From Pedobacter endophyticus (lineage in GTDB: Bacteria > Bacteroidota > Bacteroidia > Sphingobacteriales > Sphingobacteriaceae), in assembly GCF_015679185.1 (NCBI RefSeq), contig NZ_CP064939.1:1736001-1800000 (forward strand): DNA of 64,000 nt, given 5' to 3'. The translations under genes and the position numbers were made by a program. Under the pieces are notes generated by a model. The model saw nothing but the letters and a program-made list of their open reading frames with translations. It did not search any database and was not told where the DNA came from. This document shows, one piece after another, positions 1,947 through 56,279 of the stretch. Positions within the stretch are counted from its first letter, which is position 1. Every line of letters begins with the position of its first letter.

Positions 1947-2040
1947 TGAGTTGGGAGTTGGGAGTTTTGAGTTGGGAGTTTTGAGTTGGGAGTTTTCAGT
2001 TCGCAGTTTTCAATGACCAATGAACTAATGACCAATTATT
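1947..2040 (+). repeat. Degenerate heptanucleotide tandem repeat
   Basis: Starting with the base after the stop codon, the sequence runs in strict 7-bp phase for about 12 units, for example GGAGTTT alternating with TGAGTTG, drifting to TCAATGA and CCAATGA. The same words continue between the palindromes of the next array. No gene is present here. Confidence 0.85.
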
Positions 2041-9796: not shown

Positions 9797-9909
9797 TTTT
9801 ATAGTTTTTTTAGCTCGAAACTCCGGACTGTTGGAATTGCCCTTCGACTACGCTCAGGGTGACAAGCGATACGATATTTAAGATCAATAAAAAACTGGTT
9901 TTTAGTTTG

Positions 9910-9986
9910 CCACTTGGGACTTTGGACTACCGACTCCGGACTTAAGACTCACGACTCACGACTTCGAACTCCCAACTCAAACCGAC
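9910..9986 (+). repeat. Degenerate heptanucleotide tandem repeat
   Basis: About 11 units in constant 7-bp phase with the core GACT, for example GGACTTT, CGACTCC, AGACTCA. It lies between the terminator at 9796 and the hscA promoter. A fragment of the CTTCGACTACGCTCAGG dispersed family precedes it at 9842. Confidence 0.85.
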
Positions 9987-10038: not shown

Positions 10039-11895
10039 ATGGCAAAAATATCCATCAACCTGGCCACGGGCTCACTGCAAAAAGAAGAAATAATAGTCGG
10101 TATCGACTTAGGCACAACCAATAGTTTGGTAGCGTTTATTAACCCTGATAAAAACCCTCAGGTGATTAACGACGCTGGTAAAGGTGTGCTGGTTCCTTCC
10201 ATCGTGTATTTCAACGGCCAAAGCGAAGCCATTATTGGTAACGAGGCGAAAGAATTTTTGACCACAGATCCGGCAAATACCATCTTTTCGGTGAAACGAT
10301 TGCTCGGTCGTTCTTACAAGGATGTTGCCGAACATAAAGATATCTTTTCTTATAAAGTTATTGATGATGATACCGATGCCCTTGTTAAAATTCAGGCAGG
10401 GAATCGCTTTTATACGCCGATTGAGTTATCGGCAGAAATATTAAAGGAGTTGAAAGCAAGGGCCGAACATGCGCTTAAAACTCCGGTAAACAGGGCTGTA
10501 ATTACTGTTCCGGCTTATTTTAACGATAGCCAGCGCCAGGCAACACGCGATGCGGGCAAACTTGCAGGCTTAGATGTAATGCGAATTGTAAACGAGCCGA
10601 CTGCAGCAAGTCTGGCTTATGGAATCGGCCTCGACCCCACGCAGCAAAAAACAATTGCGGTTTACGATTTGGGCGGCGGTACTTTCGACGTTTCCATCTT
10701 GCAAATCCAAAATGGAATTTTTGAAGTGCTGGCAACAAACGGCAATACTTATTTGGGTGGCGACGATTTCGACCGTGCCATTTTGAGCTATTGGATGGAG
10801 AAGAACAATTTAGATAAGGCTGAGGTTGCCCAAAACACGGTGTTGATGCAAACATTACGTTTGCAGGCCGAAGCAGCAAAGAAAGCTTTATCTTCTCAAA
10901 ATTTATACAACGAGCAGGTTGGCGAAATCTGGTGTACGTTGGATAAACAGACTTTTGAGCAGTTGATTAGCGAGAAAGTTCAGGAAACCATTACTGCCTG
11001 CAAAAATGCGTTGAAAGATGCCGAGTTAACGGTTGCCGATATTGATGAAGTGATACTGGTTGGCGGCTCTACACGTACGCCTTTTGTAAAGCAATCCGTA
11101 GAGAATTTCTTCGGCAAAAAGCCGCAGGATAACATCAATCCCGACGAAGTTGTGGCGCTTGGTGCCGCCATTCAGGCTGATGTTTTGGCCGGAAACCGCT
11201 CAGATATTTTGCTGCTTGATGTTACCCCACTCTCTTTGGGTATTGAAACCATGGGCGGTTTAATGGATGTAATTATTGCCCGCAACAGCAAGGTGCCTAC
11301 AAAAGCTGGCCGTCAGTACACCACCTCGATAGATGGGCAGGTGAACATGAAGATTTCTGTTTATCAGGGCGAGCGTGACCTGGTAAAAGAGAATCGCAAA
11401 CTGGCCGAGTTCGATTTAAAAGGAATTCCGGCAATGCCTGCGGGCTTGCCAAAGGTTGATATTAATTTTCTACTTAATGCCGATGGAATTTTGACCGTTC
11501 AGGCCATTGAACTACGCTCGGGTGTTAAACAGGAGATAGAAATTACGCCAAGTTACGGCCTGAGTGATGATACCGTGGAAAAAATGCTGATTGATAGCAT
11601 CACCAACGCAAAAAGCGATGTGGAGCAACGCATGTTGATTGAGGCCCGCAGTGAAGGCGAACAATTGCGCTACACCGCAGAACGTTTTATTGAGAAGCAT
11701 GCGCAACACCTTACCGAACAAGAAATTACCGAAACCAAAGCGCACATCGAAGCGCTAAAAACTGCTTTGACATCGCAGGAAAAAGATACCATTTTAAAGA
11801 AAGCAGACGAATTGAACGAATTTACCCGCCCCTTTGCCGAACGCGTAATGGATGCGGCAATTTCTACAGCAATGAAAGGCAAGAAAATAGATTAA
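10039..11895 (+). CDS. hscA: HscA-like Hsp70 family chaperone
   Basis: 618 residues with a complete Hsp70 ATPase domain: phosphate-1 motif [13 protein letters not shown] (about 20-33), [25 protein letters not shown] (about 155-180), [16 protein letters not shown] (about 210), and [10 protein letters not shown] (about 337). A substrate-binding domain and helical lid follow. The N-terminal extension [15 protein letters not shown] before the first strand resembles HscA, the partner of IscU in Fe-S cluster assembly, rather than DnaK. No hscB, iscU or ferredoxin gene is nearby, so the substrate assignment rests on sequence type alone. No co-chaperone gene is visible in the operon. Confidence 0.8.
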
Positions 11896-14953: not shown

Positions 14954-15910
14954 ATGAAAAGATTAACGATTTTAATTGCGTTAATCATCCCAACAATCCT
15001 TTGCACATCGTGGGGATTTTTTGCACACCAAAAAATCAACAATCTGGCAGTTTTTACATTGCCGACCGGCATGATCAGTTTCTATAAAAAGAACATCAAG
15101 TACATCACCGAACATGCTGTCGACCCTGATAAACGCCGTTACGCCGATACTTTGGAAGCGCCAAGGCATTACCTTGATGTTGAAAATTATGAAACACATA
15201 TCGATAGTATTCCGGAGAAATACAATGATGCTGTAGCTAAATATGGCTTGAAGCGTTTGAGTGCAAATGGCATTGTACCATGGCAAATTCAACGAACTTA
15301 TTATAGCCTGGTTAAAGCGTTTAAAACGAGAGATTCGATTAAGATTTTAAAATATTCGGCCGATCTGGGGCACTACATCGGCGATGCCCATGTACCGCTG
15401 CACACCACCAATAACCACAACGGGCAACTAACCAATCAGGTTGGCATCCATGCTTTTTGGGAGAGCCGCTTGCCTGAGCTTTTCTCCGTTAAATATAACT
15501 TTGTTGTGGGTAAGGCCAACTATATCGAAAATCCATTAAAAGAGGCCTGGAAAATAGTGAAGCATACGCATAGTTTGGTAGATACCGTTTTAACTTTCGA
15601 GGCACAGCTATCAGCCTCCTTTCCATCTGATAAGAAATTCAGCTTCAGCGAAAGAAATAACGCCGTTTTAAAGCAATATTCGGTGGCTTATGCCAAGGCT
15701 TATCATGATAAGATGAACAGTATGGTAGAAAAACAAATGCGAAGCTCAATCTTGGCAATCGGATCGTTCTGGTATTCTGCATGGGTTGATGCAGGACAGC
15801 CTGATTTGAAAAACCTGATCAAGATTGATTTGGAACCAGACGATAAAATAATGAATGAGGATACCGAGAAAAAATTCGAGACCGGAGCACTAATCGGACG
15901 AGAGATTTAG
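14954..15910 (+). CDS. Zinc-dependent phospholipase C / S1-P1 nuclease-like protein
   Basis: 318 residues. A signal peptide ends just before WGFFAHQKIN, which provides the typical mature Trp and first His ligand. Further zinc-site residues are in HAVDPDKRR, APRHYLDVE, LGHYIGDAHVPLHTTNNHNG (about 137-156) and VGIHAFWESRLPE. This is the all-helical trinuclear-zinc fold shared by phospholipase C and S1/P1 nucleases; which activity applies cannot be told. It is secreted or periplasmic. A long heptad repeat follows directly. Confidence 0.82.
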   Translation: MKRLTILIALIIPTILCTSWGFFAHQKINNLAVFTLPTGMISFYKKNIKYITEHAVDPDKRRYADTLEAPRHYLDVENYETHIDSIPEKYNDAVAKYGLKRLSANGIVPWQIQRTYYSLVKAFKTRDSIKILKYSADLGHYIGDAHVPLHTTNNHNGQLTNQVGIHAFWESRLPELFSVKYNFVVGKANYIENPLKEAWKIVKHTHSLVDTVLTFEAQLSASFPSDKKFSFSERNNAVLKQYSVAYAKAYHDKMNSMVEKQMRSSILAIGSFWYSAWVDAGQPDLKNLIKIDLEPDDKIMNEDTEKKFETGALIGREI

Positions 15911-15923
15911 GCTACTTATTGGT

Positions 15924-16093
15924 GAATTGTTGAATTGGCTAATTGGTTATTGCGAATTGCCTATCGCTAATTGATTATTGCTAATTGGATATTGTTAATT
16001 GATTATTGCTAATTGGCTATCGCGAACTGCTAACCGTAAATTGCAAACTGTAAACTGCTAACCGCAAACTGCTAACTGCTAACTGCTAACTGC
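15924..16093 (+). repeat. Long degenerate heptanucleotide tandem repeat
   Basis: About 24 units in unbroken 7-bp phase. Units drift along the array from GCTAATT and GATTATT at the left to GCAAACT and GCTAACT at the right, ending in three identical GCTAACT units. It fills the space between two convergent genes and touches the dedA stop codon. Confidence 0.92.
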
Positions 16094-16774
16094 CTATTTC
16101 GAATCCTCTCCTTCGATTATTTCTTCAATCTTTTTTGGTTGTAAACGACTCTTAATCGCAGCCCATATCGCTGGTACGAACGTTACCGTAGCGATGGTTA
16201 AGATCACGATTTCGAAGTTATTCTTGATGATCGGAATGTTGCCCAACAACCAGCCTCCAACTAACAAAGAGAAAATCCAGGCAAGCCCGCCTAAAACATT
16301 ATAATATGTAAAACGGCCAAATGGCATTTTAGCAATACCTGCAACAAATGGCGCAATTGTTCTGAAAATTGGCAAAAATCTGCTTAGCATAATGGCTTTG
16401 CCACCATGTTTTTCGAAAAACTCGTGAGATTGATGATAATACTTAAGCTTCAATATCTTGTTATCTTCTTTAAATACGCCCGAGCCCAGCACCGTACCCA
16501 GTTTATAATTGAGCGTGTTGCCTGTAATAGCGGCTACAACTAAAATAAAAAGCATTAACCAGATATTCAAGCCCGTGTTTCCGCCTGCAATTAAAGCGCC
16601 AGCAGCAAACAACAAAGAATCACCTGGTAAAAACGGCGTAACAACGAAGCCCGTCTCAGCAAAAATAATCAAGAATAAAATGAGGTAAGTCCAAGTTTGG
16701 TAATCGCGAATGATTTCGGCTAAATGAACATCTATGTGGGCAATAAAATCCCAGAGTTGCTGTAGTATTTCCAA
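16094..16774 (-). CDS. DedA family membrane protein
   Basis: 226 residues. It shows the DedA/SNARE-associated signature: ETGFVVTPFLPGDSLLFAAGAL (about 41-62), NTLNYKLGTVLG, and the second conserved region FFEKHGGKAIMLSRFLPIFRTIAPFVAGIAKM (about 117-148) with its reentrant-loop Pro/Arg residues, plus membrane helices on both sides. DedA proteins affect membrane lipid homeostasis, and some flip undecaprenyl phosphate. Length is standard. It is likely monocistronic. Confidence 0.93.
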   Translation of the reverse strand: MEILQQLWDFIAHIDVHLAEIIRDYQTWTYLILFLIIFAETGFVVTPFLPGDSLLFAAGALIAGGNTGLNIWLMLFILVVAAITGNTLNYKLGTVLGSGVFKEDNKILKLKYYHQSHEFFEKHGGKAIMLSRFLPIFRTIAPFVAGIAKMPFGRFTYYNVLGGLAWIFSLLVGGWLLGNIPIIKNNFEIVILTIATVTFVPAIWAAIKSRLQPKKIEEIIEGEDSK

Positions 16775-24612: not shown

Positions 24613-25533
24613 TTAATTGATGTATGGTGAACTCAGCTTTTTGTTATACCTGAATTTATTGAGTTGTTCGGCTGCTTGTTCGATATTATCACCCGATAAG
24701 ATGTCGGCACCATTATTTACTAAATGATAATACAAATTTCTGGCTGGACTGGCCATGGCGCTCTTGTCGATGTTACCCATTGTGCCCAAAATAGTCGTTA
24801 TCCCTTTATCGTGAAGAAATTTATACAATTCCTTGTCCGGAGCAGCTACCCCGACAAAAGCTACAATTCTATTGTTTGGAATTCCCAGATCATTTAATCT
24901 TTTTAATTCAGCCTTTTTTTGAACTGAGGCCGAGATCATTAAATCGGGCGCTAACTGATGAACCTCTTGTGCCTGATTTGCGGTATAAGTGATGATGATG
25001 GAATTACTTTCGACCTTATACTGGCGCACCTTTTCTATTACTTTAGCATAAGAAACTCCTTTTTTTAAATCGATGGTCAAAAGCACCTTTCCTTTGCTCC
25101 AGCTTAAAACGCTATCTAACGTCGGGATTTTAAAACCGGTCTCCTTGCCTTCATTGTCCTTCAAATTAAAAGCATTTAACTCATTATAGGTATAATCGCT
25201 CACTGCACCCTTACCTGTTGATGTTCTATCCAGTTTATCATCGTGCATAATTACCATTACCGAATCTTTGCTGTAAGCGATATCAAATTCGATAACCATT
25301 GGATTATACGTGGTTGCATTTTCGAATGTTTCTATGCAGTTTTCGGGAAAGCCGGGCATTGGTCCGCCCCTATGTGCACTAATTAAAGGGAAACGATTCT
25401 CGGGCGTCCATTTCAGGAACTGATGTAACTCATCAACCTTATTAAACCTAATGTAATGATGCATTTTATTTTCCAGCTTGCACGAAACAAGAATTGTTAT
25501 TGAGGCAAGAGAAAGCAAATAATGGAATTTCAT
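24613..25533 (-). CDS. Glycerophosphodiester phosphodiesterase family lipoprotein
   Basis: 306 residues. The lipobox VSC puts the lipidated Cys at about residue 18. The GDPD TIM barrel follows with catalytic residues visible: H54 in SAHRGG, E82/D84 in VIEFDIAYSKD, and H97 in MHDDKLDRTSTGKG. It would hydrolyse glycerophosphodiesters to glycerol-3-phosphate and an alcohol in the periplasm or at the cell surface. It is monocistronic. Confidence 0.9.
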   Translation of the reverse strand: MKFHYLLSLASITILVSCKLENKMHHYIRFNKVDELHQFLKWTPENRFPLISAHRGGPMPGFPENCIETFENATTYNPMVIEFDIAYSKDSVMVIMHDDKLDRTSTGKGAVSDYTYNELNAFNLKDNEGKETGFKIPTLDSVLSWSKGKVLLTIDLKKGVSYAKVIEKVRQYKVESNSIIITYTANQAQEVHQLAPDLMISASVQKKAELKRLNDLGIPNNRIVAFVGVAAPDKELYKFLHDKGITTILGTMGNIDKSAMASPARNLYYHLVNNGADILSGDNIEQAAEQLNKFRYNKKLSSPYIN

Positions 25534-25571
25534 GGTTCAAAAGTAGGAAAAAATGGAAGATAGAAGCGGTA

Positions 25572-25620
25572 AAACGTTCCAGAGGTTAAGTGGTTAATTG
25601 TTCAAATCGGTTAATTGCCT
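25572..25620. repeat. Short heptad-phased repeat
   Basis: About seven units in 7-bp phase (for example AAGTGGT, TAATTGT, GGTTAAT). It is weaker than the other arrays. GGTTAATTGTT at 25591 and AACAATTAACC at 25662 are inverted copies. Confidence 0.4.
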
Positions 25621-25673
25621 AAGCTACTGTCTCAAATATCATTTACAGTTCTATAGTTTAACAATTAACCAAA

Positions 25674-26306
25674 CTAGGCAAATCCGTTCTTAATGGCAAA
25701 AACAGCCAATCCAACCCTGGTTTTTAGCTCGAGTTTTTCGCAAAGGTTATCTCGATAGCTTTCTACTGTTCGGGGGCTGCAAAACATCTTATCGGCTATT
25801 TCCTTGTAATTTAACTCTGTAACCGTGTATTTAAGAAATTCCCTTTCTCTTTCCGAAATTTTAATCTCGGGTTCTTTGGATTTATTGAGGCTCGAAAACA
25901 GAATTTTAGATGCCCAATCTGGGTAAAAGAAACCATTGATCGTTAGTTTGGTTAATGCGCTTTCCAATTCTACTGGGTGAGCGTTCTTTAATAAATACCC
26001 CATGGCCCCATTGCTTACCATTTTGATTACGCTTTTTTCCTCGCCTTGCATGCTTAGTGCCATTACCTTAATTTCTGGGTGATGTTCTTTTAACCAACAT
26101 ACGGTTTCGAAACCATTCATAACGGGCATACTAATATCCAACAGAACTATATTGGGAATTTGATGGGGCGACTGAAGTTTTTCGATAAGCTCCTTACCAT
26201 TTTCACACACATAAATTACCTCAAAGTTTGCAAAATTACTAATTATGGTTTGAAGTGCATTCGCTATCAAAATATGATCATCAACAACAACAATAGTATT
26301 TTTCAT
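25674..26306 (-). CDS. NarL/LuxR-type response regulator
   Basis: 210 residues. The receiver domain has D9-D10, phospho-acceptor D57 in LLDISMP and K106-region 'LLKNA'. The C-terminal LuxR HTH is ISEREREFLKYTVTELNYKEIADKMFCSPRTVESYRDNL (about 152-190). Its start overlaps the kinase gene's stop by 4 bp, so the pair is translationally coupled. It ends the four-gene operon running from 28366. Targets are unknown; the divergent subtilase operon is a plausible one. Confidence 0.93.
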   Translation of the reverse strand: MKNTIVVVDDHILIANALQTIISNFANFEVIYVCENGKELIEKLQSPHQIPNIVLLDISMPVMNGFETVCWLKEHHPEIKVMALSMQGEEKSVIKMVSNGAMGYLLKNAHPVELESALTKLTINGFFYPDWASKILFSSLNKSKEPEIKISEREREFLKYTVTELNYKEIADKMFCSPRTVESYRDNLCEKLELKTRVGLAVFAIKNGFA

Positions 26307-30450: not shown

Positions 30451-30612
30451 TTCCCTTTGACCTTTCGACTTTGGTCTTTCCGCTCTGGTCTTTTCCCAAA
30501 GGGATGCCTTTGGCACAGCTTCAGCTTTATGCTTAAAAACCCTCTGCCTTACACCTTTTAACCCACTACCTTTTTCCTTTAAACCCTCCACCTTTTTACT
30601 ATCTTTGCTTCC
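30451..30612 (+). repeat. Pyrimidine-rich heptad repeats upstream of glyS
   Basis: Two stretches in 7-bp phase, 30451-30496 (units such as GACCTTT, CGACTTT) and 30531-30612 (units such as CCTTACA, CACCTTT). They flank a segment with AAGGGATGCCTTTGGCAC, which recurs in inverted form near 41620. The array runs into the glyS -7 element. Confidence 0.75.
30600..30607 (+). promoter_or_regulatory. -7 element of glyS
   Basis: TATCTTTG fits TAnnTTTG and ends 8 bp before the ATG, so the 5' leader would be only about 4 nt. It appears to have arisen within the last heptad units. Confidence 0.5.
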
Positions 30613-35325: not shown

Positions 35326-35940
35326 GAACTCGTTCATTGGTTCATCAGTCATCGGATGAATACCTAGAACGCTCGCTATATTCATCCGATGACTATTTTG
35401 CTTATTGGTTTTTGTTCATTGGTCATTGGTTTTTCAGTCATCGGATGAATACCTAGAACGCTCGCTATATTCATCCGATGACTCTTTTGTTTATATTTTG
35501 CTTATTGGTTTTTGTTCATTGGTCATTGTTTCATCAGTCATCGGATGAATACCTAGAACGCTTGCTATATTCATCCGATGACTATTTTGCTTATATTTTG
35601 GTTATTGGTTTTTGTTCATTGGTCACTGGTTCATCAGTCATCGGATGAATACCTAGAAGGCTCGCTATATTCATCCGATGACTATTTTGTTTATATTTTG
35701 TTCATTGGTCATTGGTTCATTGGTTCGTCAGTCATCGGATGAATACCTAGAACGCTCGCTATATTCATCCGATGACTATTTTGTTTATATTTTGGTTATT
35801 GGTTTTTGTTCATAGGTCATTGGTTCGTCAGTCATCGGATGAATACCTAGAACGCTCGCTATATTCATCCGATGACTCTTTTGTTTATATTTTGCTTATT
35901 GGTTTTTGTTCATTGGTCATTGCTAACTGCCAACTGCTAA
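35326..35940 (+). repeat. Heptad-repeat matrix carrying six palindromes
   Basis: The spacers between and around the palindromes are made of 7-bp words such as TCATTGG, TTATTGG and TTTTTGT, in repeating order from one spacer to the next. It ends about 25 bp before the stop codon of the convergent NlpC/P60 gene. Confidence 0.85.
35347..35877. repeat. Array of six 48-bp palindromic elements
   Basis: Copies at 35347-35394, 35436-35483, 35536-35583, 35636-35683, 35730-35777 and 35830-35877, period 89-100 bp. Each has left arm AGTCATCGGATGAATA and the complementary right arm; copies differ at one or two loop positions only. The arms carry G where the array at 2047 carries C, with the opposite arm changed to match. 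Confidence 0.93.
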
Positions 35941-35964
35941 TTGCAAACTAATGAAACCAATTAA

Positions 35965-43691: not shown

Positions 43692-43775
43692 GTATCAAGA
43701 CATAAGTATCAAGTATCACGACAACTCACAACTCACAACTGAAGACTCCCAACTCCCGACTCAAGACTCCCCTCT
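43691..43775 (+). repeat. Heptanucleotide tandem repeat starting at the stop codon
   Basis: Twelve units in constant phase from the last base of the stop codon: AGTATCA-type units first, then TCACAAC and finally TCCCGAC-type units. It fills the gap to the convergent YdeI-like gene. Confidence 0.92.
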
Positions 43776-51681: not shown

Positions 51682-51895
51682 TCGGGAAGGCCGAAAGTCG
51701 GGAGTCGGGAGTCCGGAGTCCGGAGAGCAAAGCTGAAAGACTAAAGCGGTATGGTTAAAGCTGAAAGACCAAAGGCAAAGCGAGTGGTTAGTCCAAAGTC
51801 GCGAAGTCTGAAGAGCAAAGCAGAAGATGAAAGCTAAAAGCGGAAAGACTAAAGCTGAAAGACCCCAGAGATGAAAGACTAAAACTAAAAAGAAA
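51682..51895 (+). repeat. Longest heptad array, between hmgA and hppD
   Basis: It begins on the base after the hmgA stop and runs about 28 purine-rich units in 7-bp phase with one phase slip near 51793: AGTCGGG and AGTCCGG units first, then AGCTGAA and AGACTAA units. The following 51896-52014 holds a GGGGAGGGTTGGGTGGGG repeat fragment. Confidence 0.9.
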
Positions 51896-52014
51896 ATTTA
51901 TGGCCACGCCGTGTATGCAAAATGCTAAGCTCTCCCTTCTGGGGAGGGTTGGGTGGGGCTTAAAATCATCCGATTTCGGAACTCCGACTTTCGGACTTAA
52001 AAAAATAAAAAAAC

Positions 52015-53148: not shown

Positions 53149-53222
53149 TTAGTCCTTAGTCTGAAGTCCAAAGTCCTCAGTCTATGCCGACTAAAGACTT
53201 CCGACTAGGGACTTTGGACTCT
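53149..53222. repeat. Heptad array with mirror-inverted halves
   Basis: The left half uses AGTC units (TTAGTCC, GAAGTCC), the right half GACT units (TTCCGACT, TTGGACT), so the two halves can pair as a long imperfect hairpin around TATGCC. Confidence 0.8.
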
Positions 53223-55938: not shown

Positions 55939-56279
55939 ATTTGGAAAGCAATTGCAGTGGCATTTGGGTCGGTGCAGCCCCGCCCCCGCTTCTGCCGATG
56001 AAGAATCGGCATCTCGCTACGGTCGGGTTTAAGTGGCGCAGGCAGTGCTACTGACCAGGGTTAGTAAACCTGATGGCAGTGGCAGCCTCCGATTCTTCAT
56101 CGGAGCTACAACGGACAGCGGGACTAAAATTGCGATGAAAAGCAGAACGTTTGTTTCCCATCCAGCAAAGACCGAGAATAGTTGGAATTACGGTCAACTT
56201 TATCGCATTATCTAAAAACGGCCGTCATCCTCATAGCCAGTTTCCGAAAAAACAAAGAAGTTGGGATGACAGGTTTTTT
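55939..56279 (+). repeat. Direct duplication, copy B with internal insertion
   Basis: Same order as copy A but with about 90 extra bp after CGCTTCTGCCGAT (to about 56090), and a further short insertion near 56170. The junction word GCCGAT...ATCGG is palindromic. Confidence 0.85.

Follow-up and report, generated by a model that had tools for sequence, protein, structure and literature searches.

In marine Beggiatoaceae, Cyanobacteria and five Bacteroidetes, TAACTGA repeats mostly lie immediately before start codons and consist of near-exact units of one dominant word (MacGregor 2015, PMC4679880). The GGGAATC and GGGGA(C/T)T heptamers of Xanthomonas and Nostoc run in sense near stop codons and in antisense near start codons, with few copies between divergent genes (Rehm 2015, PMC4692102). 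According to Mrazek (2007), as summarized in PMC4679880, heptanucleotides are the most abundant long repeat unit in most genomes studied, and polymerase slippage was proposed for long simple sequence repeats. As described in that summary, those repeats are simple runs longer than expected, whereas the arrays described here are degenerate with a fixed core.

The arrays of Pedobacter endophyticus are best read as core-and-linker repeats of this known heptanucleotide kind (Beggiatoaceae, Xanthomonas, cyanobacteria), and the resemblance to cyanobacterial repeats proposed in a first-pass annotation of the window (the whole 64-kb stretch of DNA analysed here) holds. That annotation knew of no counterpart in Sphingobacteriaceae; no earlier description of these repeats in Pedobacter was found in the literature searched, but heptamers of some Bacteroidetes had already been described (PMC4679880). 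Read on the opposite strand, TAACTGA becomes TCAGTTA, which belongs to the CAGTTNN family of the Pedobacter arrays, and both have period 7; in the lone stop-flush Bacteroidetes set, that of F. litoralis, the orientation is as in the Pedobacter arrays (PMC4679880). TCAGTTA-type tandems at spacing 7 take the form of CAGTTAT arrays in three Bacteroidota genomes (G173, G231, G454) and of CAGTTNN arrays in P. endophyticus. Unlike the TAACTGA repeats, which mostly precede starts, the Pedobacter arrays lie mainly after stops, use several cores and carry variable linkers. They share sense-strand placement near stops with the Xanthomonas and Nostoc heptamers. The latter, however, have quadruplex-capable G-runs, whereas most Pedobacter cores (CAGTT, AAAG, CAAT, GAGAT) do not, and CAGTTNN, AAAGNNN and GAGATTT units do not each hold a run of at least three G. 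G-quadruplexes are rejected on this ground.

For detection, the sequence was scored against itself at each lag and high-scoring segments were taken (LLR), with a strict threshold of 14. All eight sites listed as clear arrays in the first-pass annotation are real; seven lie at or above the threshold and the one at 30451 is marginal, while 30451, 35326 and 53149 are weak by LLR. The arrays of the window are:

1948..2038, + strand: GAGTTGG/GAGTTTT heptads beginning 1 bp past the stop of a peptidase M28 gene (540-1946); LLR 31
9896..9978, - strand: GACTNNN array (outward AAGTCNN) upstream of dnaK (10039-11895; DnaK/Hsp70); LLR 26
15911..16093, no strand assigned: main heptad array, which occupies the whole interval between two convergent stops; LLR 51.7 for segment 15934-16104
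30455..30497, - strand: weak CTTT array (outward AAAG); LLR about 14, at threshold only if period 14 is allowed
35326..35964, no strand assigned: composite of TCATTGG/CAATTAG heptads and about six interleaved copies of a 50-bp inverted repeat (AGTCATCGGATGAATA...TATTCATCCGATGACT)
43704..43769, - strand: two-armed array between convergent genes; LLR 22
51686..51896, + strand: GAGTCCG array turning into AAAGCTG/AAAGACT, beginning 4 bp past a stop codon; LLR 33
53149..53222, + strand: two-armed array of TAGTCCT-type units followed by a reverse-complement arm, beginning 3 bp past a stop; LLR 14, inverted arms visible

The main array is flanked by a left stop codon at 15908-15910 and by the convergent gene's stop at 16094. 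Its CAGTTAG/CAATTAG units run outward from the right-hand gene and ATTGTTGA-like units lie beside the left-hand gene; the gradual change from GCTAATT to GCTAACT along the array is seen as first described. At 43704..43769, AAGTATC units run outward from the left gene and GAGTTGT/GAGTCGG units from the right gene. The heptad pieces of the composite, within 35396-35949, score LLR 9-22. A short 22-bp-period array (30537-30594) adjoins the weak heptad array at 30455..30497 just before a gene start, and a Flavo-1 RNA (Rfam RF01705) lies at 56062-56129, above the gathering score.

The REP/BIME elements of enterobacteria are extragenic and lie near gene 3' ends. The Pedobacter arrays resemble them in both respects but differ in that most have no conserved palindrome. 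A separate element of about 50 bp with inverted repeats (AGTCATCSGATGAATA ... TATTCATCSGATGACT) forms tandem copies inside heptad arrays at 2045-2379 and 35334-35922, and has 31 copies genome-wide by a strict pattern, often clustered. This element (35.3 kb, 2.0 kb) looks REP-like and is a better REP candidate than the heptad arrays; one of the two Y1 transposase genes in the genome is possibly its partner.

Period 7 dominates the intergenic DNA. The scan covered 1.664 Mb of the 5.43-Mb single-contig genome (the window, 1736001-1800000, plus 0-0.8 and 2.7-3.5 Mb) and used simple ORF calls, which give dependable stops but less dependable starts. It returned 55 intergenic period-7 segments, compared with 6, 0, 2, 19 and 1 at periods 4, 5, 6, 8 and 9, and with 0, 0, 3 and 2 at periods 10, 11, 12 and 13. 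The preference for unit length 7 over neighbouring lengths that marks the heptanucleotide class, and that the first-pass annotation expected over periods 5, 6, 8 and 9, is thus clear. Twenty first-order Markov shuffles of the window gave a best LLR of 12.8, and lags 4-13 other than 7 never exceed 14.6 within the window. Across the first 864 kb, 37 period-7 segments are intergenic and 3 coding, and Markov shuffles of the same DNA contain none. Scaled up by proportion from 1.664 Mb, the whole genome would hold roughly 180 arrays.

The repeat unit combines a contiguous core of about 4 bp (mostly NAGT, AAAG or CAAT) with a roughly 3-bp linker that varies. With no word chosen beforehand, 30 of 51 arrays have their three most variable phases (of seven) side by side, against 10.2 expected (p=1e-9, a somewhat optimistic value because two-unit duplications copy linker differences), and the variance between phases is double that obtained with permuted mismatches. 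Contiguity is weaker in a smaller set from other Pedobacter (8/21, 4.2 expected). In the 37 arrays aligned on AGT, conservation along NAGTYNN is 0.68, 0.82, 0.79, 0.84, 0.69, 0.54 and 0.61. Units are not exact head-to-tail copies: per phase, AGT arrays conserve about 55-60% of the linker and 80% of the core, and all 64 possible linkers are present. Linker identity falls from 0.47 at a lag of one unit to about 0.29 at five to seven units, and core identity from 0.76 to 0.52 over the same lags. This decay with distance is the signature expected of local one- or two-unit duplication with a retained core. The words, at first taken to be unrelated, fall for the most part into a few oriented families ([GCAT]AGT[TC], AAAG, CAAT, GAGAT), which recur in different arrays and in different Pedobacter species.

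Core and spacing are coupled. Four CAGTT words at spacing 7 occur in 65 of 395 Bacteroidota genomes, representing 27 of 170 genera sampled, and in 49 of 144 Pedobacter genomes. By comparison, 4/390 genomes have the same words at spacing 6, and 2/144 Pedobacter have them at spacing 8. The reversed CAGTT word is much rarer; for GAGT this control is compromised, since the reversed word TGAG forms an array family of its own. ATTGTT- and GAATGA-type words repeat at 8 instead. A period-specific process blind to the word, as originally suggested, is contradicted by these counts, and the coupling fits neither the spread of one sequence nor a period regardless of sequence.

Period 8 is a genuine minor companion of period 7. 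Its arrays (GAATGAGN, ATTGTTNA) occupy like sites in P. endophyticus and P. rhizosphaerae (L221-L227), sometimes run straight into period-7 arrays, and outnumber them in P. rhizosphaerae. The gap at 25534-25676, between co-directional genes (24613-25533 and 25674-26306), carries complementary GGTTAATTGTT / AACAATTAACC arms; several Pedobacter retain them, with octamer arrays that differ in length.

Placement relative to genes is equally specific. A stop codon lies within 12 bp of 37 of the 55 arrays in the 1.664 Mb, against 2.8 expected from random placement in gaps large enough, and divergent gaps hold 2 arrays where 10 are expected. Short ancestral gaps may explain part of this flushness, since the convergent gap at 15911-16093 measures only 0-60 bp in many relatives; arrays in gaps of 300-700 bp also adjoin the stop codon. 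Of the 46 array pieces lying no more than 15 bp from a stop, 44 have more G than C on the strand that runs 5'->3' away from the gene, a ratio of 44:2 that array-free gaps do not approach (147:120; Fisher p = 1.4e-8). Base composition follows the same trend, with G 0.316/C 0.125 in arrays and 0.195/0.187 in the comparison. Outward polarity at start codons, by contrast, is rejected as a special property: arrays give 12:2 and controls 234:65, which identifies it as background base composition before starts. The CAGTT core is nearly free of skew, yet in 21 of 29 non-coding Pedobacter cases and 16 of 18 across the phylum the CAGTT strand has its 5' side turned to the closer gene boundary, each sample including one locus of P. 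endophyticus. C-poverty therefore cannot alone cause the polarity. Stop-codon placement, strand polarity, the core-plus-linker unit and word-period coupling were all overlooked in the first-pass annotation.

Individual arrays turn over rapidly. At about 50 Pedobacter loci, the convergent gap orthologous to that of the 15924 array contains no heptad array; these gaps measure 0-60 bp or hold terminators or unrelated inserts. The simplest reading is that the array was gained in the P. endophyticus lineage. In the close pair P. kyungheensis and P. soli (about 95% identical), arrays common to both differ by indels of 14, 26 and 54 bp, those of 14 and 26 bp falling in a two-armed array. Divergence between the pair is 24% in array columns and 12% in other intergenic DNA, the former resting on few, poorly aligned columns. 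Purifying selection on array sequence is rejected on this faster divergence between close species, with the small numbers and poor alignment just noted.

We tentatively favor, at a probability of roughly 0.4, the reading that these are self-propagating heptanucleotide arrays, a degenerate long microsatellite grown by slippage and accumulating in ribosome-free transcribed DNA after stops. Polymerase slippage by one or two units would lengthen the array, and the core would be the short microhomology whose pairing a 7-nt slip requires; a core mutation would then halt propagation and a linker mutation would not. Post-stop DNA would be the first transcribed stretch whose nascent RNA is free of ribosomes, and arrays would accumulate there in an oriented manner. 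A C-poor transcript could re-hybridise to its template, which would allow the displaced strand to slip; such R-loop-assisted slippage is the preferred, though unproven, step. Elsewhere, arrays would be removed through the disruption of genes. Replication slippage is favored as the driver because linker similarity decays with distance and close species differ fast; slippage with the core as microhomology accounts for local homogenisation, the contrast between core and linker, and fast turnover. The period-7 excess, the scarcity of arrays in divergent gaps and the single CAGTT core held to spacing 7 across Bacteroidota also count in favor of this reading. C-poverty of the sense strand and post-stop placement suggest the link to ribosome-free transcription. 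Against slippage, indels of at least 5 bp are rarely multiples of 7 (1/3 in arrays, where they are few and alignment is poor, and 4/34 in other intergenic DNA). Slippage alone also leaves two things unexplained: the recurrence of the same cores (AGT, CAGTT) in distant lineages, and the fact that certain cores slip by 7 and others by 8.

The recurrence of the same core across lineages is better explained by the main rival, a functional 3'-UTR element, which we nonetheless consider unlikely. A putative nucleic-acid-binding protein would read AGT/AAAG cores spaced 7 nt apart on RNA that is free of ribosomes past the stop, the transcript would be stabilised, ended or regulated, and selection would keep core, phase and sense orientation. 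The contrast of core and linker, the sense polarity at stops and the return of a single core with constant spacing in 27 of the 170 genera are all consistent with this, as are the GACTT-type heptads that occupy the same place before dnaK in several Pedobacter species. Orthologous gaps are, however, array-free in most congeners, arrays diverge faster than other intergenic DNA, and several cores serve within one genome.

A word-family switch at one orthologous position (L294-L304), with AGCTTT heptads in P. kyungheensis and AACTCC in P. soli between near-identical flanks, would also suit the dispersal of founder arrays by recombination or gene conversion with slippage secondary, as would identical stretches such as GAGTTGGGAGTTTTGAGTTGG in several arrays. 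This is improbable, because array edges show no shared flanking sequence, target site or element and the empty site of the 15924 array differs by the array alone. Similarly speculative, and doubtful in our judgment, is the proposal that phased 7-nt core-linker arrays are landing sites of a Bacteroidota sequence-specific system on ribosome-free RNA or DNA after stops, the cyanobacterial, Beggiatoaceae and Xanthomonas heptamers being the same system with other cores.

In some arrays, complementary 7-periodic arms after the stop could pair in RNA and terminate transcripts arriving from either side. Inverted arms are clear at arrays 27155, 40890 and 568036 of this genome and at 53149 of the window, they recur at the 25.5-kb gap in several species, and fold z-scores reach about -5.5 at some arrays. 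Many arrays are nevertheless single-armed, and the mean fold z is -1.8 in arrays against -2.2 in array-free gaps. Stable stem-loops of the REP/BIME or intrinsic-terminator type are thus confined to the minority that fold, and a hairpin or bidirectional terminator is rejected as a general explanation and poorly favored overall.

Telomere-like healing, in which both broken ends were extended outward with heptads and then joined head to head, is highly improbable: paired arms, where present, do face each other and the G-rich strand does read outward from genes, but the model does not predict the pile-up at stop codons, the outward bias at starts does not exceed background, the many core families would demand many templates, and no telomerase-like enzyme was identified, RVT_1 hits being present. 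Two further ideas are set aside. All-frame stop codons as the purpose of a period that is not a multiple of 3 are rejected, as common units, GAGTTGG and AAAGCTT among them, contain none; Rho loading sites appear to fit badly, as CAGTT arrays read from the other side have no YC step in the core and tandem gaps would not match.

Several aspects are apparently new in the literature searched: the core-linker unit, the link between core and spacing, the wide occurrence of CAGTT at spacing 7 in Bacteroidota, and, from a controlled test, polarity above background at stops only. Strict post-stop placement of seven-base arrays likewise seems to be undescribed. Together, scattered reports of bacterial heptamers become one testable rule: a fixed core, a free linker, a spacing of exactly 7, a position flush with the stop and a C-poor sense strand. 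This leaves two options: translation imposes a strand bias on bacterial slippage, whose unit length is unexpected, or an as yet undescribed phased element resides at 3' ends.
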